The translations under genes and the position numbers were made by a program. Shown here piece after piece: positions 8,913-41,453 of a stretch of 43,631 nt of DNA. The notes below the pieces were generated by a model. The model worked only from the letters and a program-made list of their open reading frames with translations. It searched no databases and was not told the origin of the DNA. Every line of letters begins with the position of its first letter. Within the stretch, counting starts at the first letter, position 1. The DNA comes from a virus: IMG/VR virus record IMGVR_UViG_3300010939_000078, positions 1-43,631 of that record. One strand, 5' to 3'.

Positions 8913-9209
8913 TCAGCACGGTTGCGCATCTTGCAGGTGGCGGCAATCTCCGGATGACATCCAGTAGATGTCTTCGACTGGCACTTCAATTTCGTCGTCT
9001 TCGTCGTTTTCAATATCCAGGTACCCGGACACAGCCAGGCCGGCTTCCTCCCTTTCGTCACTCCACAGGGCGCCTCTTTCGTATAGCCAGTCTTCGTTTG
9101 CCCAATCAGTTGCTGGCTCCCACTTGACTGGTTCAACCCAGTTGACACCCGGATAACTTGTTCTGTGCATCAATCGTACTTTGATGGTTTGTCTTTTGTC
9201 TGCCGGCAT
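8913..9209 (-). CDS. Hypothetical acidic protein
   Basis: This is a 98-residue protein from the ATG at 9209 (MPADKRQ), which has GGGAGA 6 nt upstream. The longer frame from 9242 would translate the leader. The protein contains W-rich segments (VNWVEPVKWEP) and a strongly acidic DIENDEDDEIEVPVEDIYW stretch. Its 5' leader is nearly the same as that of the next upstream gene. It could be a DNA mimic or an inhibitor, but the sequence alone does not show it. Confidence 0.6.
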   Translation of the reverse strand: MPADKRQTIKVRLMHRTSYPGVNWVEPVKWEPATDWANEDWLYERGALWSDEREEAGLAVSGYLDIENDEDDEIEVPVEDIYWMSSGDCRHLQDAQPC

Positions 9210-9257
9210 CTCTCGTCTCCCGTTAGTGGTTTCGTTGCTCATTGTCTGCCTCGTCAG

Positions 9258-9332: not shown

Positions 9333-9523
9333 CGAGTGATCCCCTCAACTTGTTCCAGATCGTCATTATTCTCGATCCAGCTGTTTACATAATCTTGAGC
9401 TTCGACGAGCGTCTCAAATTCGTCTTGCCCCGGCTCAGTGCTTACCCAGACGTCATTGGAATCGAGTGATTCCGCTGAGTAGACCCCAAACAAATTACTG
9501 ATTCTGATCTGTCGCTTGGCCAT
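9329..9523 (-). CDS. Hypothetical acidic protein, first gene of the leftward arm
   Basis: This 64-residue protein runs from the ATG at 9523 (MAKRQIRISNLFGVY), with GGGAGAA 5 nt upstream. The longer frame from 9568 reads through the leader. The body has a short beta start and an acidic helical end (DEFETLVEAQDYVNSWIENNDD). It is the first gene of the leftward early arm, divergent from the morphogenesis operon. The leader of about 40 nt (GGCAGACAA...ACGGGAGA) is duplicated before the gene at 8913. Confidence 0.6.
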   Translation of the reverse strand: MAKRQIRISNLFGVYSAESLDSNDVWVSTEPGQDEFETLVEAQDYVNSWIENNDDLEQVEGITR

Positions 9524-9594
9524 CGCTTTTCTCCCGTTTGTGGTTTCGGTTCTCATTTCGATTCTCATTTCGTTTCTCGTTGTCTGCCTTCCCC

Positions 9595-10293: not shown

Positions 10294-11473
10294 GGTAGTG
10301 GTGGCCGGCCGCCGGTGGGGAAAAACGGGAACGGCGCTACAGGCAGCGATTAGAGGGCACGGACCGGAGCGCGGCGACTTTCGCGGTGCGATTGACGGTG
10401 CCCTGATCTGGTGGGTCGCTCCGAGTTCCACGACGATCGAGGCATCCAACGTTTGGCATGATCTCAAGCGGATGACATCAGGTGCCTGGACCGATAAGAG
10501 CGAGATCCACAAACGGATCAATCTGCCGGGTGGCGGTTCGATTTCCGTCCGTTCTGCTGATGACCCGAATTCTTTGCGCGGTCCGGGACTGGACGGTCTG
10601 ATAATTGATGAGGCTGCGTTCTTGTCCGTGGACGCTTGGCAAAATGTCTTGCGGCCCGCGCTCTCGGACAAACAGGGGTGGTGTTTATTTATCACGACCC
10701 CGAACGGCTACAACTGGATCAGAGGTCTCTATGCCGACGCTGTGGATCGACCCGGCTGGTCGCGGTGGCAGTGTTCGTCGAGCGACAATCCACTTGTTAC
10801 GGCTGGAGAACTGGCCGATATCAAACGGACTATCGGTCCGCGCCGTTTCGCCCAAGAGCACGAAGCGAAGTTCACGGAGGTCGAGGGCGCGTTGTGGCCG
10901 TCCGAGTATTTCGAGGATCACATTTATGCGAACCCGGATGAGTGGCCGGACAGATTTCAGGCGACGGTCATCGCAATCGATCCGGCGATAGCCGTCACGT
11001 CGATGGCCGACTATTCCGCCATCGTGTTCGCTGGGTTGGCCCGCGGGAAGCTGTGGGTCGATTGCAAGCTGATTCGCTGCCCGCCCGTGGAATTAGTACA
11101 ACATGCTGTCGCGATGTCAGACAAATACATTCCGGTTCGCGTTGGAATCGAGAGCAACGCATTTCAGGCTGTGCTTCGCCCGTTGTTCGATGGATATTGC
11201 CGGGAGCACAAACACGCTCCGCTCCCGTTGTCGCTGATCAACAATCACGAAAAGAAAGAGGTTCGGATCCAGCGTCTCGATCCGTACCTCGCGAACCGCC
11301 AACTCAAGTTCCACCCGCATAATCCGGATTGCAAGATTCTGGCCGAGCAGCTTATGATGTTTCCAAGCAAAGGATACCACGACGACGGGCCGGACGCGCT
11401 CGAGATGGCGATCCGGCTGATCCGTCATATTACGACACGCACTGTTCCGCCAGAGGAGGTTTTGGTTCCATGA
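10217..11473 (+). CDS. terL: Terminase large subunit
   Basis: Visible motifs run in the order of the two-domain packaging motor. The Walker A is VVAGRRWGKTGTA, the Walker B is LIIDEA, and the coupling motif is FITTPNG. In the nuclease part there is AIDPA (first Asp), a VGIESN segment (Glu) and HDDGPDALEMAI (last Asp). This is the Terminase_6 type. I prefer the ATG at 10217; ATGs at 10205 and 10250 are alternatives and none has a strong Shine-Dalgarno. It packages DNA into proheads through the portal. Its stop overlaps the portal start as ATGA (11470-11473). Confidence 0.93.
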   Translation: METPTVLLPSPMAHQIPILLDPARFKVVVAGRRWGKTGTALQAAIRGHGPERGDFRGAIDGALIWWVAPSSTTIEASNVWHDLKRMTSGAWTDKSEIHKRINLPGGGSISVRSADDPNSLRGPGLDGLIIDEAAFLSVDAWQNVLRPALSDKQGWCLFITTPNGYNWIRGLYADAVDRPGWSRWQCSSSDNPLVTAGELADIKRTIGPRRFAQEHEAKFTEVEGALWPSEYFEDHIYANPDEWPDRFQATVIAIDPAIAVTSMADYSAIVFAGLARGKLWVDCKLIRCPPVELVQHAVAMSDKYIPVRVGIESNAFQAVLRPLFDGYCREHKHAPLPLSLINNHEKKEVRIQRLDPYLANRQLKFHPHNPDCKILAEQLMMFPSKGYHDDGPDALEMAIRLIRHITTRTVPPEEVLVP

Positions 11474-14004
11474 CAACAGAACTCATTAAAGCCAAAACCG
11501 AACTCGCCCTCGTCGAATCCCAGCTCAAGATTGAAGAGGCAAAGGCCAGGACCGCCATCATCAAACAAGCGGCCAAGCCGCTGGCAGAACATTGGGATTT
11601 CGTTCCACACGCGGTTGACAAGTTCTCTTTCCGCGACCCGCATTTCTTCGCCGATGGATTTCCGCACAGGCATACGCCCTGGTCGCTCAAGAGCGACCGT
11701 GAAGACGGCAAGTTCTTTCCGCTCTACGAGACGGAGATGGACCTTGCTCGCATTCGCGGCCAGTCCCGAAACCTTGCCGCGTTCACGTCCACGGCCATCG
11801 GGGCTGTCGAGGCGTTGAAAAACTACGTGTACGGGACCGGGTTCACCTACACGATTCAGGCGGCGGAAGGCGTGCAGGCCGATGAACTCGTCAAGCAGGC
11901 CCAGCGTGTCATTGATAAATTCATCGAGCTGAACGATTACACGGGCATCATTGACGCCGAGAGCCACCAGCGCAGCCGTGAGGACGGTGAAGTATTCATG
12001 CATCTTAGGGCGGACGGGTCGCGAGTCTTATTGGATATCATCGAGCCTGACAACGTGACCGAACCGGCAAACAAACGGGAAATCGAGGACTGGCTGGAGG
12101 TCACCGGGAAGGTTCCCGTCTCCGCGTTCGTTACGTCGTGGAAGTTTGGCATCCTCACACCCCAACGGCACACGCACGAGACACTGGGGTACCACGTTGT
12201 CTACGATTCAGCCGGCAACGATTGGGAGTGGGTGCCAGAGAGTCAGATGGTGCACATCAAACGCAACGTGCCCAGGAAAGCTAAACGCGGCGTCTCTGAT
12301 TTTGTGCCGGTGTGGGAGGACATCGAGGCTGAAGCACGGCTGCGGAAGAACACTGCTGAAGGGGCCGCGATTCAGGCCGCGATTGCGTTTATCCGCGAAC
12401 ACGTTCCCGGTACGTCGAAAACTGATATCGTTGATTTCGTCGCTGCGAATGCAACCACAAATTACGGCAAGTCCATCAAGGACGGCACGCGCACAACGCA
12501 GGTCGAGAAGTTCCAATCGGGGACCGTGAAGGATATCCCCGAAGGTATGAAATACCATGCCGGCCCGATGGGCACGCTCCGCTCGCCGATCTTCATCGAG
12601 GTTGCACAGTTCATTCTTCGCTCAATTGGTCAACGCTGGAGTTTCCCGGAGTTCATCATCTCCGGCGATGCCAGCAACGCAAACTTTGCTTCGACGCTGG
12701 TTGCCGAGTCGCCGTTCGTCAAGGCCCGCGAATGCGACCAGGCGTTCTACAAAAGAGGCGACTCGGAACTGCTGTGGAAAGTTCTTCGCTTGGCCTGGGA
12801 TAACGGCAGGTTGAAAGGCGACTGGCAACAGATTGAGCAGTCAATCGAGGTCAAGATCGACGCGCCGGAAGTTGCCAGCCGGGACAAGCAGAAACAGGCA
12901 TCGACCGATGAGATCCTGCAACGCATGGGTGTCAAGAGCCGTCGAACGATTGCCGCCGAGCATGGTTTGGATCTTGGTGAGGAGTTGCGGAACATGGAAG
13001 AGGACGGCGACCCGCAGCCGGGGGAGGGCGAATCACAACCGCTGAGCGAAGCGGCCAGGTTTCTGGGGTTATCCTTAACTGAGGCGTCTGGTTGCGGGAC
13101 CGGGACAGGCGGGTTCGGATCTGGCAACACGTGTGCCAAAGGGGGAAGCGGGCGCACGGGTCGATCACTTGAGTCAGCGACTCGCAATGACGCAGGTGAT
13201 CTTGTTTTAGCCGGTGGTTCAAAAGTTCCCGCACACATCGAAAAACTACGGATACCTCCAGCATGGTCGGATGTGGAAATCAACCCTGATGCACAAGGCG
13301 ATCTGTTAGCCAGGGGCCGTGATGCAAAGGGCAGGAGCCAGCGAATTTATTCCGATTCGTTTTCTTCAAAGCAGGCAGAAAAGAAATTCTCCCGGACGCG
13401 TGAACTGATCATCAAAAGCGATGGGATCAAAACTCAAAACGCCGCAAATTTAACGAGCAGCAATTTGGAGACAAGAAGCTCGGCCCAAGTCATGACGTTA
13501 ATCCAAGAGACCGGGATACGCCCAGGTAGCGACCGGGATACAAAAGCCGCAAAGAAAGCGTTTGGCGCGACAACGTTAGAGGGGCGGCACGTCGTCGTTG
13601 AGGGCGATTCGGTGAGTCTTCAATTCACCGGAAAAAAAGGGGTTGAACTCAACATCCCGATTAACAATCCGCAACTTGCAAATATGCTCAAGGACAATAA
13701 ACAAAAATCCGGATCGGACGGCAAACTGTTTCAAACGAACGCAAGCGAATTGCGCGAGTATTCCAAAACTCTGGACGGCGGTGGATTCAAGCCTAAGGAT
13801 TTCCGCACGGCAAAAGGAACGCAAACGGCCATCAGCCTTATCAAACAAAATCCCAACCCCGCAAAGAATATGAAAGAATACAAAAGTCGCGTCAGAAATG
13901 TCGCCGTAGCAGTTTCCAAACAGCTTGGAAATACGCCGGCAATTGCCTTACAATCTTATATCGACCCCGTCGTTTTTTCCGGTTGGAGACCCACCAGTGG
14001 CTGA
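11470..14004 (+). CDS. Portal protein fused to a type IB topoisomerase domain
   Basis: The protein has 844 residues in one frame. Residues 1 to about 520 look like a phage portal (DLARIRGQSRNLAAFTSTA; AIGAVEALKNYVYGTG; MVHIKRNVPRKAKRG; FPEFIISGDASNANFAS). A linker rich in Gly and Cys (GCGTGTGGFGSGNTCAKGG, about 540-558) follows. Residues about 590-844 match the topoisomerase IB catalytic domain: PPAWSDVEINPDAQG then GRDAKGR, IRPGS (Arg684), FGATTLEGRHVVV, FTGKKG (Lys722), LFQ, DFRTAKGT (Arg779), LGNTPA (Asn) and SYIDP (Tyr830, the expected nucleophile). A separate topoisomerase start codon is not apparent. The fusion would place the domain at or near the packaging vertex, or a protease may release it. 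The linker is duplicated in the next gene. Confidence 0.88.
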   Translation: MTTELIKAKTELALVESQLKIEEAKARTAIIKQAAKPLAEHWDFVPHAVDKFSFRDPHFFADGFPHRHTPWSLKSDREDGKFFPLYETEMDLARIRGQSRNLAAFTSTAIGAVEALKNYVYGTGFTYTIQAAEGVQADELVKQAQRVIDKFIELNDYTGIIDAESHQRSREDGEVFMHLRADGSRVLLDIIEPDNVTEPANKREIEDWLEVTGKVPVSAFVTSWKFGILTPQRHTHETLGYHVVYDSAGNDWEWVPESQMVHIKRNVPRKAKRGVSDFVPVWEDIEAEARLRKNTAEGAAIQAAIAFIREHVPGTSKTDIVDFVAANATTNYGKSIKDGTRTTQVEKFQSGTVKDIPEGMKYHAGPMGTLRSPIFIEVAQFILRSIGQRWSFPEFIISGDASNANFASTLVAESPFVKARECDQAFYKRGDSELLWKVLRLAWDNGRLKGDWQQIEQSIEVKIDAPEVASRDKQKQASTDEILQRMGVKSRRTIAAEHGLDLGEELRNMEEDGDPQPGEGESQPLSEAARFLGLSLTEASGCGTGTGGFGSGNTCAKGGSGRTGRSLESATRNDAGDLVLAGGSKVPAHIEKLRIPPAWSDVEINPDAQGDLLARGRDAKGRSQRIYSDSFSSKQAEKKFSRTRELIIKSDGIKTQNAANLTSSNLETRSSAQVMTLIQETGIRPGSDRDTKAAKKAFGATTLEGRHVVVEGDSVSLQFTGKKGVELNIPINNPQLANMLKDNKQKSGSDGKLFQTNASELREYSKTLDGGGFKPKDFRTAKGTQTAISLIKQNPNPAKNMKEYKSRVRNVAVAVSKQLGNTPAIALQSYIDPVVFSGWRPTSG
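13048..13143 (+). repeat. Linker module, copy 1
   Basis: This 96-bp segment encodes EAARFLGLSLTEASG, CGTGTGGFGSG and NTCAKG. It recurs at 14255-14350 with only a few base changes, most of them silent. It separates the portal body from the topoisomerase IB domain. Confidence 0.92.
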
Positions 14005-14983
14005 TATTCCCGGACTTGATGCTGATATTCATTTCGGATCGATCGATTCTAAGCCGGACGATTGGCGAAAAGATAAAGACCTCATCGAAGAAATTGATCC
14101 GGATGATGATGAACTGTTTGATACCCCAAAAGACGTGATCGCAATTTTAGGGTTCGATCCTCTCGAAGAGGACGATGATAAACCAGAGACGGTCGTCGAA
14201 TCAACGCCACTATTACCCGCGGATCAAGGGGCGATGGAAGGCGCGGCGACGCTGGAAGCGGCCAGGTTTCTGGGGTTATCCTTAACTGAGGCGTCTGGTT
14301 GCGGGACCGGGACAGGTGGGTTCGGATCTGGCAATACGTGCGCGAAGGGTGAAGGAACATCTAATACCCAAAAATCAACGGAGTCATTTCAACCGAAAAA
14401 AATGCTTGCGGAATTAAGTAGTGAAACACAAAAAATTCTTGAAGAAAATGAATATGAGCTAGAAGATTTTGAAACTTTTTCTGATGCCGTATTGGATGGC
14501 AATGACACAGAAATCGAATCCAATGTACCATTGATCGGCGAATCAGCAGTTGAAGAAATGGAAGAAGCAGTCTGGAATCAAGCAATTCCTCCGAAATCAG
14601 AATCCGCCTCCTATGGTCCGGGCGGAGAAACTTTCACACTTCATCGCGCAGTTAACACTAAAGAATCGAAATATTCCAATACTTTTTGGACAGACAATCC
14701 AAAAGATTCCCGCCCGTACGTGACAAAGCATTTCAAAGAAGCCAATTTGAGGGTGTTAGACGTATCAATACCTTCTGGAAAAATTGCCGACGCAAATTCA
14801 TTGCGAAGTGCTGCTCAAACCTTGGGGATTAGTGCGGAGTTTGATTTTGAACTTGCGGACAATAATGATGTCAGAGACGTTCTCAGAAGTGAAGGCATTG
14901 TGGCTATTTTCTTCCGTGATTTAGGCCCTGATAATTCTTACGAGCACGATACGATGTTACTTTTGTCGGAGCCAAAACCATGA
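13997..14983 (+). CDS. Linker-bearing protein with ADP-ribosyltransferase-like C-terminus
   Basis: This is a 328-residue protein from a GTG at 13997, which overlaps the portal stop by 8 bp and has GGAG 8 nt upstream. The N-terminus is acidic (MADIPGLDADIHFG; DPDDDELFDTPKDVIAILGFDP). Then come PADQGAMEGAATLEAA and the second copy of the GCGTGTGGFGSGNTCAKG linker. The C-terminal third differs from the upstream gene: GGETFTLHRAV, NTFWTDNPKDSRPYVTKHF and NLRVLDVSIPSG follow the usual order Arg, S-x-F/W-T and strand of ART-fold proteins. A late Glu (SEG...) could be catalytic. ART activity is inference. Base composition is more AT-rich after about 14355, suggesting recent acquisition. Confidence 0.62.
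   Translation: MADIPGLDADIHFGSIDSKPDDWRKDKDLIEEIDPDDDELFDTPKDVIAILGFDPLEEDDDKPETVVESTPLLPADQGAMEGAATLEAARFLGLSLTEASGCGTGTGGFGSGNTCAKGEGTSNTQKSTESFQPKKMLAELSSETQKILEENEYELEDFETFSDAVLDGNDTEIESNVPLIGESAVEEMEEAVWNQAIPPKSESASYGPGGETFTLHRAVNTKESKYSNTFWTDNPKDSRPYVTKHFKEANLRVLDVSIPSGKIADANSLRSAAQTLGISAEFDFELADNNDVRDVLRSEGIVAIFFRDLGPDNSYEHDTMLLLSEPKP
14255..14350 (+). repeat. Linker module, copy 2
   Basis: This is nearly the same 96 bp as at 13048-13143, offset by 1207 bp. It is preceded by module A (14216-14257, PADQGAMEGAATLE), which itself recurs at 15147-15204 with a small insertion. The two module types flank domains that differ, as expected for cassette replacement by recombination. Confidence 0.92.
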
Positions 14984-15234
14984 TAATTGCAGACCAGGAG
15001 ATATGGGATCGGGTCATAAAAATGCTCGGATTTCGCGGCAAACTATCTGTAAATCAAGCAAAAACTGTTAAGCATTTATTCGTAAAAGCTGGAGGCGGAA
15101 CGGGGGATAGAGGCGCAGATGAGCTTTCTGAATCGATCCGATTATCCCCCGCGGATCAAGGTGCGATTGCCGGGGCGATGGAAGGCGCGGCGACGCTGGA
15201 AGAGGCGCAGCAAATACTGAGAGATTATCCATGA
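14980..15234 (+). CDS. Short protein ending in the repeated PADQGAIAGAMEGA module
   Basis: This 84-residue protein has an ATG overlapping the previous stop as ATGA (14980-14983). The first 45 residues (MIIADQEIWDRVIKMLGFRG) are unique. The rest, LSPADQGAIAGAMEGAATLEEAQQILRDYP, copies the module found before the linker in the upstream gene. Portal and MuF proteins often end in such short helical tails, so this may be the displaced original C-terminus of the portal. Its function as a separate protein is unknown; an immunity or chaperone role for the neighbouring domain is speculative. Confidence 0.55.
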   Translation: MIIADQEIWDRVIKMLGFRGKLSVNQAKTVKHLFVKAGGGTGDRGADELSESIRLSPADQGAIAGAMEGAATLEEAQQILRDYP

Positions 15235-15401: not shown

Positions 15402-15436
15402 ACCCCAACCTGTTTTCCGGCTTGCACAGAATCGAA

Positions 15437-16183
15437 ATGGCCGAACTAAAAAACCGCAACGCACTTGATAAACGTTTCGCGCGCCAGTTCGCCAAACTCA
15501 CCGCGAAGCAGAAACGCGAATTGGAGCGGCTGCTGGGAGACCCTCCGGATCTCGCCAACGTTCCGGCAGCGTTCTGGATTGAAGCCCAGCGTGAGACCGA
15601 AGAAGAACTGGCCGCGTTGATGCTGCTGGTGTTCGTCGCCGCATCTAGCCAGCACGGGATGAACAGGACGAACAGCCAAACGCAGGGGCTTGTGTTCGCC
15701 ACGCAGCAGGCCAAACAGGTTTCCACCCAGTTCGTGACACACACTCGCGAACGGCTTGCAGCCGGGTCCGGCGTCGATACGGTACTCGGCCCGTCCCGGG
15801 TCGCCACCGTCGCCGAAACGGAAGTTACCGCTGCGCAAGCCGAGGGAACGACGGCCGCTGTCCGATCGGGGGACGTTCCAAGATTATCATTCGGGGCCCC
15901 GTTCTGGTTCACACAATGCGCCCCATCGGTGTGCAAAATCTGCTGGCCGTTTCATGGGCTGCCGGATCAGGTTTGGCGTGGGAAAATCTCACTGCCAGCA
16001 CACCCGCACTGCCAATGTTACCTGTCGGTGCTGCGCGTCGGGCGCTTGGCAGGCCGCATTCGGGTCAGAGATTGCCCGGCACCGGAAGGGGCAGACTTTA
16101 CACTTCGCAGGCGGCTGGTCGTTGAGTCAAACAGGATCCTGGAGTTAACCGGCGGTCCCCAGCGGGGCCGGTTTGATAATTGA
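15437..16183 (+). CDS. MuF-type minor head protein (SPP1 gp7-like)
   Basis: This 248-residue protein has an N-terminal helical half (KQKRELERLLG and following), then TVAETEVTAAQAEG. It ends in the cysteine/histidine-rich signature of the phage Mu F family: FTQCAPSVCKICWPFHG and LPAHPHCQCYLSVL. The ATG at 15437 is taken as start; a TTG at 15422 is possible. This protein sits inside the head near the portal, can be ejected with DNA, and in other phages is often fused to toxin domains. Here those domains are instead found on the neighbouring linker proteins. Confidence 0.75.
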   Translation: MAELKNRNALDKRFARQFAKLTAKQKRELERLLGDPPDLANVPAAFWIEAQRETEEELAALMLLVFVAASSQHGMNRTNSQTQGLVFATQQAKQVSTQFVTHTRERLAAGSGVDTVLGPSRVATVAETEVTAAQAEGTTAAVRSGDVPRLSFGAPFWFTQCAPSVCKICWPFHGLPDQVWRGKISLPAHPHCQCYLSVLRVGRLAGRIRVRDCPAPEGADFTLRRRLVVESNRILELTGGPQRGRFDN

Positions 16184-16530: not shown

Positions 16531-17661
16531 ATGAAACAAATCTTGCAAGAAACGACTCTTTCTGAATCACCGCTCTCCGTTGACCGTGAGGCCGGGATAA
16601 TCAAGGGTGTCAAGATCCTTGGCCGCGAATCGAAGAACGGGCGCACCTATTCGGCCCGTGCTCTCCAGGAAGCCAGTAAATTTTACGAAGACATCAAGGT
16701 CAATATCGACCATCCAGACCGCAGTAATCCGAATCAGGAGCGGTCTTTCATTTCGTTCATCGGCCAGCTTGACCGCTGTCATGTTGCGGAATCTGGCGAC
16801 GTGTACGGTGATCTCAACATCCTGAAATCGTCATCCCAATCCGAGGCGGTATTCGAGGCAGCCGAACGATTCCCAAAACAGTTCGGCCTGTCTCATAACG
16901 CCGAAGGCGAACTCGTTCAGAAAGACGGCGGCTGGGTTGTCGAATCCATCGACTGCGTTCATTCCGTTGACATCGTATCCCAACCGGCGACGAACGCCGG
17001 GCTATTTGAATCAGTGGAGCTAAAAATGAAACGAACTCTCCGCGAAGTTGTGACAACCGCAAGCCGCAAACGAAAAGGCTTCAAACGTTTTTTGGAGGAA
17101 ATGCACGAGGACGGAATGCTCGCGGATGTCGAAGGCGTGGAGGTTGAAGCTGAGATTTCCGCTGCCGATGCGGCAATCGATGCGCTTGCTCAAAAAGCGG
17201 ACGAAGCGTTCCGCGATATGAGCATGAGCCCGGAGGACACGGCGAAGGTCGTCAAAGACCTCAATAAAATTGCCATCGAGGTCGTGCAAAAACTCGAAAC
17301 CGTCGAGCAAGCCGTCGGGGAGAGCGGCAACGCGGGGGAATCGAGCTCTGGTGCTGGTGGTACGGATGAGGAAGTCAAACTTCCAGAATCGGTACAAAAG
17401 CGTTTGCGCTCAATCGACCGCATGGAAGCGAAAAACATGCTACTGGAATCGGACCGCGAAGCAAGCGGCGAACGCATCACTGCCGTTGCCGCCGTCCCGG
17501 AACGCCAGCGCCAGAAGCTGGTCGAGTCATGGCCGCGGAAAACAAGCGGCAACGGTGCAAGACGACCCGGAAAGTCACCGTCGATTCTGGAATCGGAAGG
17601 CCGCGATTGGACCCCCGCGAAGAACACACAGGAATTCGCCAGCCGCTTGCGAAAAGCGTGA
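16531..17661 (+). CDS. Prohead protease with C-terminal scaffold region
   Basis: This 376-residue protein has an N-terminal half with GVKILGRESKNGRTY, IDHPDR (candidate catalytic His) and FGLSHNAEG (a Ser-His segment), followed by VVSIDCV-like and DIVSQPATN motifs. This fits the herpesvirus-type phage protease group of the Mu I/T4 gp21 kind. The C-terminal half is acidic, helical and low in complexity, as expected for a fused scaffold that is digested during maturation. The start ATG follows the terminator-like RNA. It precedes the head-associated and capsid genes. Confidence 0.78.
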   Translation: MKQILQETTLSESPLSVDREAGIIKGVKILGRESKNGRTYSARALQEASKFYEDIKVNIDHPDRSNPNQERSFISFIGQLDRCHVAESGDVYGDLNILKSSSQSEAVFEAAERFPKQFGLSHNAEGELVQKDGGWVVESIDCVHSVDIVSQPATNAGLFESVELKMKRTLREVVTTASRKRKGFKRFLEEMHEDGMLADVEGVEVEAEISAADAAIDALAQKADEAFRDMSMSPEDTAKVVKDLNKIAIEVVQKLETVEQAVGESGNAGESSSGAGGTDEEVKLPESVQKRLRSIDRMEAKNMLLESDREASGERITAVAAVPERQRQKLVESWPRKTSGNGARRPGKSPSILESEGRDWTPAKNTQEFASRLRKA

Positions 17662-17679: not shown

Positions 17680-18786
17680 ATGACCTTATCATTGTCACTT
17701 CCTGAATCGGCTCTGGCTTTGCCGCGTCGCTTCGGTTTTGAGACACTATTCAACAGCCCTCCTAAGCACCAGTACCACCAGTATTTGTTGGCGGATCTCG
17801 GCGCGGGTATTGACCTGGCCGCGACCGTGATCTTCGCTCCGGGCCGGGCGATTGTGATCCACGATATTAGGATCACAGGCGACGGGTCACCGGCCGGTGT
17901 CGACGATGCTAACACGAGCGTGTGGACAGTGACCGATGGAACTTCAACCATCGTCGCAGAAACGTACGACACCACGACTGTGTTCCCGGCCGACAGCGTG
18001 CAGACCAGCCTCGGCACGGTTGCCAACCAGGTGATCCTTGCCGGTGGCCGCGTCGAATTGACGGTTCTGAATGGTACGGCTGCCAACTTGCCGCCTGTGG
18101 TCGTCACAATTGAATACAGCGACCTCGGAGCGTACCCTTACGAGGGCTGGCAGATCATCGCGCCGGACGACGGGACTGCTATCATTGCTGACGGCGTTCC
18201 GGGCGAACTCGATCTGCTGACCGGTGGCGGATCTGATAACGATGAAATCTACATTGCCCGCGCAGTCGAAGAATTTCTGTTTGCCGATGACAAGCCGTTA
18301 TATTGGAGCACGCGGCTACGCCTCGCGGAAGCGAACACTGATGACGCCAATATTATCTGCGGTGTGATGGATGCTGTTGCCGCTAACAGGCTCCAGGATG
18401 ATGGCGCAGGTCCGCCTTCCAGTTATAGCGGCGCCGTGTTTTTCAAGGTGGACGGCGGGACCGTCTGGCAATTTGAAACGTCGCTTGGCAGCACTCAGAT
18501 CACGACCGCCTTGGCTGCTCTGTCTCCAGACGGTGCTTCTGATTACCACACACTCTGGATTGAAGCCCGCCGGCGGGATGCGACGACTATTGAACTGATC
18601 CCGTTCATTGACGAAGCGGGCGGGCAGAAAAAGGATCAGGCCCTCGACGCCAATGGCGACAAGATCAAGCACACAATCACGCTTGGCTCGCCGACCGACA
18701 TGATGGCGTTTGCCGGCGTCAAGAACGGCGGGGCCAACGCCGAAACGCTGATCGTCCAGTACATGGCCGCTTACCAACTCCGATAA
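17680..18786 (+). CDS. Head-associated (decoration-like) protein, long paralogue
   Basis: This 368-residue protein has an N-terminal 130 residues that are Thr/Val-rich and beta-like (ATVIFAPGRAIVIHDIRI). From about residue 150 it is clearly homologous to the next gene: DNDEIYIARAVEEFLFADDKP, SSYSGAVFFKVDG, FETSLGSTQ and HTITLGSPT. The position between protease and major capsid genes suits a capsid decoration or fibre protein. A beta-sandwich or ConA-like fold is likely but not shown. Both paralogues begin SLSLTLPE/LSLSLPE, so a shared N-terminal anchoring peptide is possible. Confidence 0.62.
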   Translation: MTLSLSLPESALALPRRFGFETLFNSPPKHQYHQYLLADLGAGIDLAATVIFAPGRAIVIHDIRITGDGSPAGVDDANTSVWTVTDGTSTIVAETYDTTTVFPADSVQTSLGTVANQVILAGGRVELTVLNGTAANLPPVVVTIEYSDLGAYPYEGWQIIAPDDGTAIIADGVPGELDLLTGGGSDNDEIYIARAVEEFLFADDKPLYWSTRLRLAEANTDDANIICGVMDAVAANRLQDDGAGPPSSYSGAVFFKVDGGTVWQFETSLGSTQITTALAALSPDGASDYHTLWIEARRRDATTIELIPFIDEAGGQKKDQALDANGDKIKHTITLGSPTDMMAFAGVKNGGANAETLIVQYMAAYQLR

Positions 18787-18800
18787 ACGGAAAAAACATA

Positions 18801-19535
18801 ATGTCTTTGTCATTGACTTTGCCGGAGAGATTTCTGCTCGCGCCGCGCCAATTCGGGCATGTCGATCACTTCGAGGAATTCGTCACTGGAGACCGTTGGA
18901 CTTCGCTCGAAGCCGATGCCGGTTCGAGTGTTGCCGCTGTTGATTCCGCCGAAGGTGGACTCGATCTGATTTCTGGCGGAACCGACAACGACGAAGTGTA
19001 TGTGCATACGACACAAGAGTTGTTTTTGATCGCAGACGATAAGCCAATGTCGATGATAGCTCGGCTCGCGTTTGCCGAAGCCAATATCAACGACATCAAT
19101 GTGATCTGCGGATTTCAATCTGCCGTTGTCGCCAATTCTCTTCAAGACAATGCCGGCGGGCCGCTAGCCTCCTACAGCGGTGCCGTGTTTTTCAAACTCG
19201 ATGGAGAATTGTTCTGGCGGTTTGAAACGTCGCTTGCCGGTACTCAGACCACGACCAGGCTTGCTGCGGTCAGCCCGGATGCTGCGACCGATTTTCACAC
19301 GTTGCAGATCGACATACGCCGCCGGGATGCGACGACCGTTGAACTGATCCCCATGATCGACGAATCGGGCGGGAACAATCCACTGCAAGCACTCAACAAC
19401 AACGGCGTGAAAGTCAAGCACACCATTACGTTAGGTTCACCGACCGAGATGGCCCTAGTGTGCGGTGCCAAGTCGGGCGGAGCGAACGCGGAAACAGTCC
19501 GGCTTGCAATGATCGGCTGGGAAGGCACCCGGTAG
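18801..19535 (+). CDS. Head-associated (decoration-like) protein, short paralogue
   Basis: This 244-residue protein matches the C-terminal 210 residues of the preceding protein over its whole length (DNDEVYVHTTQELFLIADDKP, YSGAVFFKLDG, FETSLAGTQ, HTITLGSPTEM, SGGANAET). It lacks the N-terminal beta region of the paralogue. The gene begins 15 bp after the previous stop. Two copies may allow mixed occupancy of one capsid site or surface diversification. Confidence 0.62.
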   Translation: MSLSLTLPERFLLAPRQFGHVDHFEEFVTGDRWTSLEADAGSSVAAVDSAEGGLDLISGGTDNDEVYVHTTQELFLIADDKPMSMIARLAFAEANINDINVICGFQSAVVANSLQDNAGGPLASYSGAVFFKLDGELFWRFETSLAGTQTTTRLAAVSPDAATDFHTLQIDIRRRDATTVELIPMIDESGGNNPLQALNNNGVKVKHTITLGSPTEMALVCGAKSGGANAETVRLAMIGWEGTR

Positions 19536-39154: not shown

Positions 39155-40375
39155 TCATTCCTGCTCCAGCTTGTAGTTTGCCCACAGGCATTCAATCTTT
39201 TTTTTCTTCTTCTTCGAGGACGACGCCTTGTTGTCGATCTCAATATCGGCGCGGTACCAGCCCTGAGCTTTTGAGACAATCTCATAAAGCTCAGACGGAT
39301 ATCCGCTCAGAATGAATTTTCCCTTTAGTTTTTTACTGAAATAGCTCTCCAGCACGGACCACTGGTCGTCACTCCAAGATTCTTTCCGTCTGCCAAGAGC
39401 CATTGATCTGCCAAGAGCCATTGGTCTGTCTGGATTGGACAACAGCATCAATAATCGCGCATGGTCAAAGACACTCATTTCAAATTCACCGTACTCGCCG
39501 GTCGAAGACCGTGTTGTGTGCAGATACGGCGGGTCGCAGTAAACCAGCGTGCGGTTCCCGTCCTGCTGCTGGATCACATTGCAGGCATCGTCGTTCAGAA
39601 TCACGACGCCTTTCAACCGCTCGTGGACTTCCGGCAAGCCTTCGATGCCGTTCCACCAGGCGTTCGCTTCGGCGTTGCGCCCGCCGCGCGTCCGGTTGCG
39701 AGTCAGCGGCGTAAAACAATTCATACGCCCGGCCATTGACTGGCGGGCGCGGACGAAAAACCAGACCGCATTAGTGAGAAGGTCTTCGCCGGAAGCCCGT
39801 AGTCCCGGGTCGCTTGCACCAGCGCCGCGCGACAACGTATTACACTGGTTCCAGCCATCCTGGCTGAATGGAATCGCCTGCATGATCCGCTCGAATCTCG
39901 AGAACATTTTTTCATCAGCCAATACTTTCCAAAAGTTTGTCAGCGCGCCGTTGACATCATTTACGATTTCAGAGCCGCCGCGCAAATGAGCGGGAAGCTT
40001 ATCGCCGTTCTCCAGTCTCCAGGCTTCGTCGAGGAGCCAATCGCGATTCGGGTCGCGCGCCAACAGCACAGCGCAGCCGCCGCAAAATGGTTCGACAAAG
40101 TGAAGGTGTGCGGGGAAAAACGAAATGATCCACTTCGCTAAAAAATGCTTTCCGCCCGGCCACTTGAGTGGTTGTATTAGCTTAATGTTTGTGCTCCTGA
40201 CCTTCCCTAAACTGGCCTGCGCGCAATTGGCCGGCGATACAACACCACCCTGCGCTGGTATTGAAAGGCTTGCCTGTCTTGTTCCTGTTTTGCCCGGTAA
40301 TATCCAGTCGTACTCGAACAAAGGATTTGGCGGCGGCGTCTTTGAAGTTTCAGATTTTGGTTGTTTGCCTGGCAT
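39155..40375 (-). CDS. Dam-type adenine-N6 DNA methyltransferase
   Basis: This 406-residue protein of the D12 class carries PLKWPGGKHFLAKWI (motif X), FVEPFCGGCAVLL (motif I, Phe-x-Gly variant) and VYCDPPY (motif IV, DPPY), with a target domain between. It starts at the ATG at 40375 with AAAGG 7 nt upstream and overlaps the preceding gene by 26 bp. The 60-residue N-terminal extension is Pro/Ser-rich and unrelated. An 18-bp duplication (near 39388-39423) created PMALGRSMALG. It would modify the phage genome, probably against host restriction. Confidence 0.85.
   Translation of the reverse strand: MPGKQPKSETSKTPPPNPLFEYDWILPGKTGTRQASLSIPAQGGVVSPANCAQASLGKVRSTNIKLIQPLKWPGGKHFLAKWIISFFPAHLHFVEPFCGGCAVLLARDPNRDWLLDEAWRLENGDKLPAHLRGGSEIVNDVNGALTNFWKVLADEKMFSRFERIMQAIPFSQDGWNQCNTLSRGAGASDPGLRASGEDLLTNAVWFFVRARQSMAGRMNCFTPLTRNRTRGGRNAEANAWWNGIEGLPEVHERLKGVVILNDDACNVIQQQDGNRTLVYCDPPYLHTTRSSTGEYGEFEMSVFDHARLLMLLSNPDRPMALGRSMALGRRKESWSDDQWSVLESYFSKKLKGKFILSGYPSELYEIVSKAQGWYRADIEIDNKASSSKKKKKKIECLWANYKLEQE
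39388..39423. repeat. 18-bp direct duplication in the methyltransferase gene
   Basis: CCAAGAGCCATTGATCTG is followed directly by CCAAGAGCCATTGGTCTG. It duplicates six residues (MALGRS) between the DPPY motif and the C-terminal domain, close to a surface loop. Confidence 0.85.
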
Positions 40376-41453
40376 CCACTCGCCTTTCTGCTCCGTTCCC
40401 AAGATCTCTCCCTGCGGTCGCGACGCGCGGCATTTGGCGGACTCTCAAGTCTTCCGGCCACTCTGACATGTCGCCCCCTTTTTTGTCCTTGAGCCGTATC
40501 CGATTCACGTCCGTCCCGGTGCCGTCCGGCCAGCATTGCGAGCCGGGAACTGTACACGTCGTCGCGGCGTTGCGGCCGATTACGTTTGCTCCAAGCTGCT
40601 TCACAAAACAATCGATTCCCGCTGCACCGCATTGCGTCACAATCGAGCGAATCCAATCGGTGTTGCACGGCCGAGCTCCCGGCCCAGATTCACCGCCGGC
40701 GATTATTTGATCAAGTGTCGCCACCGCTGCCCGGGTGCGATCTTGGATACCGTCCGGTCGCGCACTCCGAAAGCCGCCGCGATCCGCGTCTTCCTCAATC
40801 CACTGCGAAAAATTAATCGGTGACAGCAACGGCTCCGCAGAAATAAACCTGATGCAAGCCGCACAGTTCAGTAGATGTGGAATCCGTTCCTCGGCCCGCT
40901 GCTGGTCTTCGCAGGAGACGCCAAGCCAGACGTTGGGAAGCGGCCGGGGCGGCTCCTTCCATTTAACTCCATATTTTTTCCCAATCAAACCCATTTCATC
41001 GAACCACTCATCTGCGCATTCATCATCGCGGGACTGTCTGCGATCTCCAAGATACTCCGCCATCCGCCCCGCTCTTTTCGTAAGGCACTGAAACGTATGC
41101 TGCGGGCAAAGAGCCATCACCGCGAACACTTTATCGATGAATTCGAACGGAACTTGTTCGTGAAACAGGTCGCTCATCGAGTTGACAAACCAGGTCGCCG
41201 GCTTCTTTTTCTTCAGCGGGATTGATAAGGCAAACACATTGATTTTTATTTTCCCCGTCCAGAGAATACGACCGTTCTGCTTTTCTGTCGTACCTTGATA
41301 CTTATCCTGCCCCATCGCTTCGAGACGAAAAGCCATTCGCATCGCATAACAATTATGGCAACCCGGCGAGACGATTGAACATCCCGACACCGGGTTCCAT
41401 GTTTCACCTCGGGTGCCATCAGAGTTTTGCGCCCACTCAATTTTAGTAGCCAT
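40350..41453 (-). CDS. Phage Gp37/Gp68 (DUF5131) family protein
   Basis: This 367-residue protein has KIEWAQNSDGTRGETWNPVSGC and GCHNCYAM, then FVNSMSDLFHEQVPFEFIDKVFAVM and GGESGPGARPCN and FVKQLGA. These are the signatures of DUF5131 (Gp37/Gp68). The spacing of the early cysteines resembles a radical-SAM-like iron-sulfur site, but the activity of the family is unknown to me. The ATG overlaps the upstream stop as TAATG. It sits directly before the methyltransferase and may belong to a DNA or nucleotide modification pathway. Confidence 0.85.
   Translation of the reverse strand: MATKIEWAQNSDGTRGETWNPVSGCSIVSPGCHNCYAMRMAFRLEAMGQDKYQGTTEKQNGRILWTGKIKINVFALSIPLKKKKPATWFVNSMSDLFHEQVPFEFIDKVFAVMALCPQHTFQCLTKRAGRMAEYLGDRRQSRDDECADEWFDEMGLIGKKYGVKWKEPPRPLPNVWLGVSCEDQQRAEERIPHLLNCAACIRFISAEPLLSPINFSQWIEEDADRGGFRSARPDGIQDRTRAAVATLDQIIAGGESGPGARPCNTDWIRSIVTQCGAAGIDCFVKQLGANVIGRNAATTCTVPGSQCWPDGTGTDVNRIRLKDKKGGDMSEWPEDLRVRQMPRVATAGRDLGNGAERRVDARQTTKI

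Follow-up and report, generated by a model that had tools for sequence, protein, structure and literature searches.

A short header peptide between phage-head proteins and interchangeable effector-like domains suggests a plug-in system for loading phage heads

The viral record IMGVR_UViG_3300010939_000078 from IMG/VR was analysed over its whole length of 43,631 nucleotides (nt), hereafter called the window, for a repeated module encoding a short peptide, the header, that lies between phage-head proteins (carriers) and C-terminal effector-like domains (cargo); relative contigs are designated by L numbers (e.g. L205). The locus follows the order terminase (10184), portal-header-topoisomerase IB (TopIB), satellite-header-cargo, an open reading frame (ORF) of 84 amino acids, a MuF-like gene and ORF 16531-17661. 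Positions 11470 to 14004 (plus strand) encode a lambda-family portal protein fused via the header to a DNA TopIB domain, as assigned by Pfam (Phage_portal_2, 1.2e-17, residues 88-412; C-terminal Topoisom_I, 3.4e-22, residues 631-824, and Top1B_N_bact, 7e-9) and by a match to PHROG 21 (portal) at 1e-31. A direct search with the portal core retrieved no viral relative, and the relatives described here came via motif scans. This first cargo, a bacterial-type TopIB recognised by Pfam (13234 to 13941, plus strand), was aligned full length to the Deinococcus TopIB (2f4q, E 1.9e-30), with the five catalytic residues (Arg, Lys, Arg, Asn, Tyr) all in register. Arg, Lys, Arg, Asn/His and Tyr are the residues known to be catalytic in that family and, since the set is complete, the window TopIB is probably active as an enzyme.

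The satellite gene (13997 to 14983, plus strand) consists of an acidic N-terminal part, a portal-tail-like piece (PADQGAMEGAATLE, 14214 to 14262, plus strand, which repeats 15146-15206 with a 12-nt indel), the header and a cargo domain. Its N-terminal part is about 39% identical to the N-terminus of a gene of L225 with ART-like motifs and a different header, QPRD, treated below. The satellite cargo itself had been called ART-like in the initial annotation, a proposal that was not confirmed: the motifs were recognised by eye only, neither Pfam nor PHROG gave a match, a search for relatives gave none, and the AlphaFold model, built without an alignment, had a mean predicted local distance difference test score of 50 and no significant match in a fold search. 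The 84-residue ORF (14980 to 15234, plus strand), portal-tail-like in its C-terminal half, resembles the pre-header portal tail of the relatives L168, L196 and L205; its local alignment to the L205 portal tail scored 56, which 0 of 1,000 shuffles reached. This ORF probably represents a portal tail that has been displaced, with a fragment of the same tail also fused to the satellite gene's header. The MuF-like head morphogenesis gene (15422 to 16183, plus strand, likely start ATG 15437) had a weak match to PHROG 4728 (8e-6) and is 29.5% identical to the gene that follows the homologous portal in L205, where it comes after portal-header-ART. Pfam, PHROG and the homology to L205 bore out the proposal that the carriers are the portal and a satellite gene near the MuF gene; the MuF-like gene carries neither header nor cargo, both cargo domains being on the portal and the satellite. 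An immunity gene adjoining the window cargo was not identified.

The first repeat copy (13048 to 13143, plus strand, in the portal ORF) encodes EAARFLGLSLTEASG followed by the header CGTGTGGFGSGNTC and AKG, its first to last header Cys codons spanning 13093-13134, and the second copy (14255 to 14350, plus strand, header Cys codons 14300-14341) lies in the satellite ORF. The two are identical at 90 of 96 positions, as had been claimed for a 96-bp module recurring almost unchanged, and no other site in the 43.6-kb record matched the motif pattern. Their first 62 nt are fully identical, and an exact match of this length within a few kilobases puts the repeat far beyond chance; judged on the sequences, the near-identity is the product of a local, recent copy. 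All six differences (positions 63, 81, 87, 90, 93 and 96) are silent third-codon changes in the last 34 nt. Their clustering there suggests recent copying of the left part (EAARFLGLSLTEASG-CGTGT) and, for the right part (GGFGSGNTCAKG), a separate history with each cargo; this is the pattern expected from a junction inside the module, on the thin basis of six sites. That the repeat is an assembly duplication or a chance product has nothing in its favour except the similarity itself, and the clustered silent differences, together with hundreds of copies of the same module elsewhere, leave it practically no probability. The second recurring module of the initial annotation (14216 and 15147) proved to be one repeat, 14198-14262 and 15130-15206, broken by a 12-nt indel and with 35 nt of it at 97%. 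The claim that linker modules flank the domains holds in that a header precedes each cargo, and fails for flanking on both sides, the second repeat being the apparently displaced portal-tail piece.

The module encodes the 14-residue header CGTGxGGFxxGNxC, in fuller consensus [DN]-C-G-T-G-x-G-G-F-x-x-G-N-x-C-A, and then a spacer, in most cases rich in glycine. At the DNA level, a pattern for CGTGxGGFxxGN(S/T)CA matched at least 88 IMG/VR stretches; this pattern imposes its own residues, and two relaxed scans were hence performed. Among the matches listed, the scan without the first Cys retained that residue in 101/101, sometimes with a longer loop, and the scan without the second half retained GNxC in 64/64. 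The span from Cys to Cys was 14, 17 or 20 residues only (222, 29 and 8 copies, respectively), and the longer spans (L104, L123, L125, L139, L147, L160 and others) grow in threes through Gly/Ala/Pro-rich insertions. Nearly every copy has Asp, Asn or, more rarely, Gly ahead of its first Cys, and up to six copies occur per contig, most of the relative contigs being fragments. One of 84,980 prokaryote genomes, that of Singulisphaera acidiphila, contained the header, in a prophage region (L091), and GenBank phages yielded no convincing match (a single weak one, E 5). A planctomycete-wide host link was considered and found weak, this being the only genome match overall and one of 392 Planctomycetota genomes.

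Header copies of the same contig agreed at 0.53 of silent sites, against 0.44 predicted by codon usage, with 31 of 47 contigs above expectation. As this agreement is only slightly above the prediction, the module appears to be held by selection on the protein, and by these comparisons it is conserved across phages as protein and weakly as DNA. The near-identical linker DNA of the initial annotation is a property of the two window copies that does not extend to the module in other phages.

Pfam scans covered 38 non-redundant parts upstream of the header and 98 parts downstream. Upstream, Pfam identified lambda-type portals (9), HK97-type portals (8), a Mu-type portal (1), prohead protease S78 (2), MuF and others, so that the carrier families comprise Phage_portal_2, Phage_portal, Portal_Mu, S78 protease and MuF, to which PHROGs adds major head protein matches. 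Downstream, the Pfam families included ADPrib_exo_Tox, ART-PolyVal, ART, PARP, Zeta_toxin, TopIB (the window), 2H phosphoesterase, MuF and DUF5824, most of the 98 cargo segments being without a Pfam match. In many free ORFs the header stands 13-75 residues from the ORF start, behind a short leader, and in relatives such as L008 cargo is fused to MuF itself. Conflict or effector domains were thus found fused to, or encoded among, portal, MuF and other head genes. DUF5824 was frequent both upstream and downstream, so further short mobile modules may use the same joints; the L205 portal, too, has a DUF5824-like stretch (judged by eye) at about residues 520-620, between its core and the header. 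In one large cargo cluster (L003, L016, L052, L061, L084, L085, L118, L159, L187 and others) Gly/Ala-rich repeats resembling glycine zippers come immediately after the header, possibly as a membrane-inserting segment.

Exchange of cargo was assessed by gapped comparison; an ungapped scan was set aside, as indels in glycine stretches mimic breakpoints. Header-copy pairs sharing DNA on both sides numbered 142, whereas 217 pairs had at least 200 nt of upstream DNA (at least 75%) in common and unrelated cargo. Homology in these 217 pairs stopped 0-35 nt past the last header Cys codon. In the converse arrangement, common cargo DNA behind unrelated upstream sequence (18 pairs), the start of homology fell 0-21 nt ahead of the first Cys in 16 of the 18. 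These counts are of pairs and not of independent events, and groups were therefore counted too: the 248 copies fell into 107 carrier groups and 78 cargo clusters, with 8, 7 and 4 cargo clusters in the largest carrier groups (26, 16 and 11 contigs) and 6 in a group of 7 contigs. In 42 contigs the header gene has a gp21-like protease gene downstream, no more than 25 nt away in 20 cases, and, this gene being fixed there, the cargo changes between fixed flanks.

A clean insertion is found in the protease gene of L113, whose protease and scaffold parts are separated by an in-frame insert of about 435 nt, bounded by GAAAAA at both ends, that encodes a header and some 110 residues of cargo and contains no other gene. 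Eight counterparts (L031, L088, L202, L199, L078, L042, L025 and L009) are uninterrupted and collinear, with 75-94% DNA identity on each side. The protease/scaffold boundary used in L113 holds another short Cys motif, CWEGYxPAKGVxAYxxGSCVKAE, in L043 (3358-4560), L013 (3225-4331), L051 (4030-5136), L073, L183 and L064.

The window cassettes showed the same behaviour in their relatives. Portals about 45% identical to that of the window occur in L168, L191, L196 and L205, where the same header leads into a domain showing ART-like motifs (by eye) in place of TopIB; in L205 a MuF homolog follows the portal gene, as in the window. The TopIB unit, in turn, was found on L157 behind the same header, 58% identical to the window unit, whereas the L157 portal does not match the lambda-type window portal and looks HK97-type. 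Translated similarity between L157 and the window begins at the first header Cys codon, 13093. Over the header system as a whole, C-terminal domains were polymorphic among close relatives, and the turnover behind the linker between constant flanks that the initial annotation had predicted was seen, with breakpoints at the linker and an insertion with uninterrupted counterparts. Neither observation that would have spoken against that prediction was made: the same two domains do not always follow the linker, and the repeat, with clustered silent differences in a widespread module, is not an assembly duplication. Header conservation, exchange of cargo between carriers and breakpoints at the header are demonstrated at the level of sequence comparison, which supports the reading of a recombination-driven cassette exchange.

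At least 120 viral stretches contain a second header, (F/Y)xPxQPRDxxGR(W/F)(T/S), again ahead of effector-like domains; it has up to four copies per contig (for example L225, 2437-6261, and many in L227-L344), and occurs together with the CGTG header in L028, L059, L062 and L209. Behind it were found ADPrib_exo_Tox (15), MuF (9), zeta (6), ART (6), ART-PolyVal (4) and TopIB (2; L225-L227 and L293 carry TopIB behind this header), as well as CdiA-type, PBECR and restriction-fold toxin domains; before it were portals of four Pfam families, MuF, S78 protease and the anti-CBASS protein Acb1. In its carriers and cargo the QPRD header appears to behave similarly to the CGTG header. A single ORF of L293 (3-3848) contains, in order, a QPRD header, a MuF-like region with an intein-like insert (by eye), a further QPRD header and TopIB. 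A guess at a third header, NPNQPRVPAGSPEGGQF, had no match in GenBank phages. We give an even chance to the proposal that a small header set (CGTGxGGFxxGNxC, QPRDxxGRW and possibly more) would serve as interchangeable joint codes, so that any domain placed behind a header would be loaded and released on any carrier, and cargo would pass from phage to unrelated phage in cassettes of header plus domain.

ORF 16531-17661 (plus strand), downstream of the MuF-like gene, was assigned from its invariant residues and its AlphaFold model as a putative T4 gp21-type prohead protease with a helical, scaffold-like C-terminal part. H61, S121 and D147 are invariant across 16 homologs, and the model, made from the homolog alignment, had T4 gp21 structures as its top three Foldseek matches (5jbl best, probability 1.00). 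The match covers about half of the model, the full-length TM-score being low and the C-terminal half unmatched. Sequence searches of Pfam and PDB left this ORF without a protease assignment, and PHROGs gave weak head maturation protease matches to its relatives only. With the Ser-His-Asp set present, the model points to a gp21-type prohead protease with a scaffold-like tail.

Taken whole, a header-marked plug-in system for phage-head effectors is, in our judgement, fairly probable. Its unit would be the header peptide, usually a glycine-rich spacer, and one effector domain, attached behind proteins of the head (the portal C-terminus, MuF, the prohead protease/scaffold), behind another unit in series, or behind a short leader as a free gene. 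The domains would be packed in the head, injected with the DNA and act at an early stage of infection, through ADP-ribosylation, kinases, nucleases, topoisomerase or anti-defence functions; head packaging and injection of the cargo are inferred from the carriers, the cargo and the precedent of polyvalent and MuF proteins (PMC5512222, PMC9503650, PMC5576092). Less certainly, the header would act as a protein-level signal at the carrier-cargo joint, and the neighbouring gp21-type protease would cut the cargo free of portal or leader during head maturation; release by cutting is proposed on the ground that the portal channel offers no exit to a domain still anchored to the portal ring. This protein-level need would keep the header constant, and its constancy would offer recombination a shared junction and so permit in-frame cargo swaps. 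In the window, the portal-TopIB unit and the satellite unit would share a recently copied portal-tail/header junction.

Several points weigh against this proposal. A single cargo was found in 14 of the 25 carrier groups with at least three contigs, and the swap counts are of pairs, as said. (L/I)-x-E occurs before the header 25 times against 15.5 expected, at most a weak enrichment, and the broader gp21 cleavage pattern shows none (50 against 49.5 expected), so that cutting by the gp21-type protease is unsupported at the level of motifs. Free genes with a header near the N-terminus fit a loading tag equally well. Such a tag, by which the header would dock cargo to scaffold or portal like the T4 capsid targeting sequence and would not be for cleavage, is possible, at somewhat less than an even chance. 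It agrees with the many free ORFs whose header lies 13-75 residues from the start and with T4, in which a 10-residue N-terminal tag suffices to load a foreign protein that is then cleaved (PMC9026906). Portal, protease and MuF carriers, however, need no further tag to reach the head, yet the header sits exactly at the cargo joint, and it is also placed in series between cargos. We regard a header that separates cargo from carrier in head maturation as about equally credible.

The remaining alternatives attribute the constancy of the header to other causes. A redox or metal switch, which the header cysteines would keep closed in the virion and which would open in the reducing cytoplasm of the host, freeing or refolding the cargo, is consistent with both Cys being in every copy, longer loops included; it is nonetheless unlikely, since the QPRDxxGRW header has the same kinds of carriers and cargo without Cys, and Cys chemistry is therefore not the general principle. 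An inert flexible linker kept through common descent would account for the glycine-rich stretch that usually follows the header, but strict conservation of Cys, Phe and Asn on unrelated carriers and the discrete spacing of 14, 17 or 20 are unlike free linkers and make this quite improbable. Conservation of the header purely as a DNA recombination site with no protein function agrees with the breakpoints at the header and with its DNA identity, 0.85 in pairs with shared cargo and 0.82 with shared carrier, against 0.71 in unrelated pairs. The residues are, however, strictly kept across phages of differing codon use and all six window differences are silent; the comparison of silent sites (0.53 against 0.44) led us to reject a purely DNA-level role, to which we leave very little probability.

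Portal- and MuF-effector fusions carried in phage heads have been described (PMC5512222, PMC9503650). The polyvalent proteins (Iyer et al. 2017, PMC5512222; 2022, PMC9503650) are effectors of the ART, 2H, zeta kinase and PBECR kinds, in multi-domain form or fused to portal or MuF, for which head packaging and injection are predicted, and several header cargo families belong to the same Pfam families (ART-PolyVal, PBECR). The header system differs in being defined by a constant joint header and exchange breakpoints, and term searches of those papers (PMC5512222, PMC9503650) found no shared header peptide. The MuF polymorphic toxins of temperate phages likewise pair a constant head domain with C-terminal toxin-like domains that vary (Jamet et al. 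2017, PMC5576092). In contrast to them, the header system has mainly portals as carriers, along with protease, MuF and free leaders, its phages are seldom seen as prophages (1 of 84,980 genomes), and no toxin or cargo is fused to MuF in the window. In T4, internal head proteins are loaded via a short tag and cut by gp21 after L/I-x-E (PMC9026906). The header resembles this tag as a short peptide ahead of what would be internal, injected head proteins, with a gp21-type protease beside the window locus, whereas the T4 tag is N-terminal and cleaved and the header is internal in fusions, N-terminal in many free genes and lacks clear site enrichment. In CdiA (VENN) and in Rhs and other polymorphic toxins, a conserved peptide marks the exchange point of variable C-terminal domains. 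The header is similar in its place at the swap point, and CdiA-type domains occur behind the QPRD header, but its carriers are phage-head proteins and no secretion machinery is involved.

A shared portable header with exchange at its edge was not found in the literature, motif-letter searches included, most subscription papers and preprints being outside the search. The initial annotation had suggested an undescribed effector locus; the fusions were already known, and the shared header and the cassette behaviour appear to be the new parts, of which an earlier description is possible. A short header marking, in this phage and many uncultured relatives, where interchangeable enzymes and toxin-like domains attach suggests a widespread plug-in loading of heads with proteins destined for injection into bacteria. 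A scattered class, effectors fused to head proteins, would become searchable, the header predicting where an injected effector starts even without known relatives, and the route by which proteins joined to the portal or to another fixed part of the head get out becomes directly testable. As known anti-defence (Acb1, 2H) and toxin families are among the cargo classes, header-linked cargo of unknown kind forms a candidate list for anti-defence and host takeover. Should the header by itself load and free cargo, it would offer a compact tag for work on phage protein delivery in laboratory strains.

Other features of the window were recorded. Between the protease and capsid genes, 17680-18786 and 18801-19535 are tandem paralogs (59% identity over 202 amino acids) without PHROG matches. 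A 37-nt direct repeat (9207-9243 and 9521-9557, 84%, 314 nt apart) lies upstream of the terminase, and a phage DNA methyltransferase gene (PHROG 56, 5.8e-49) is encoded on the minus strand at 39155-40402.

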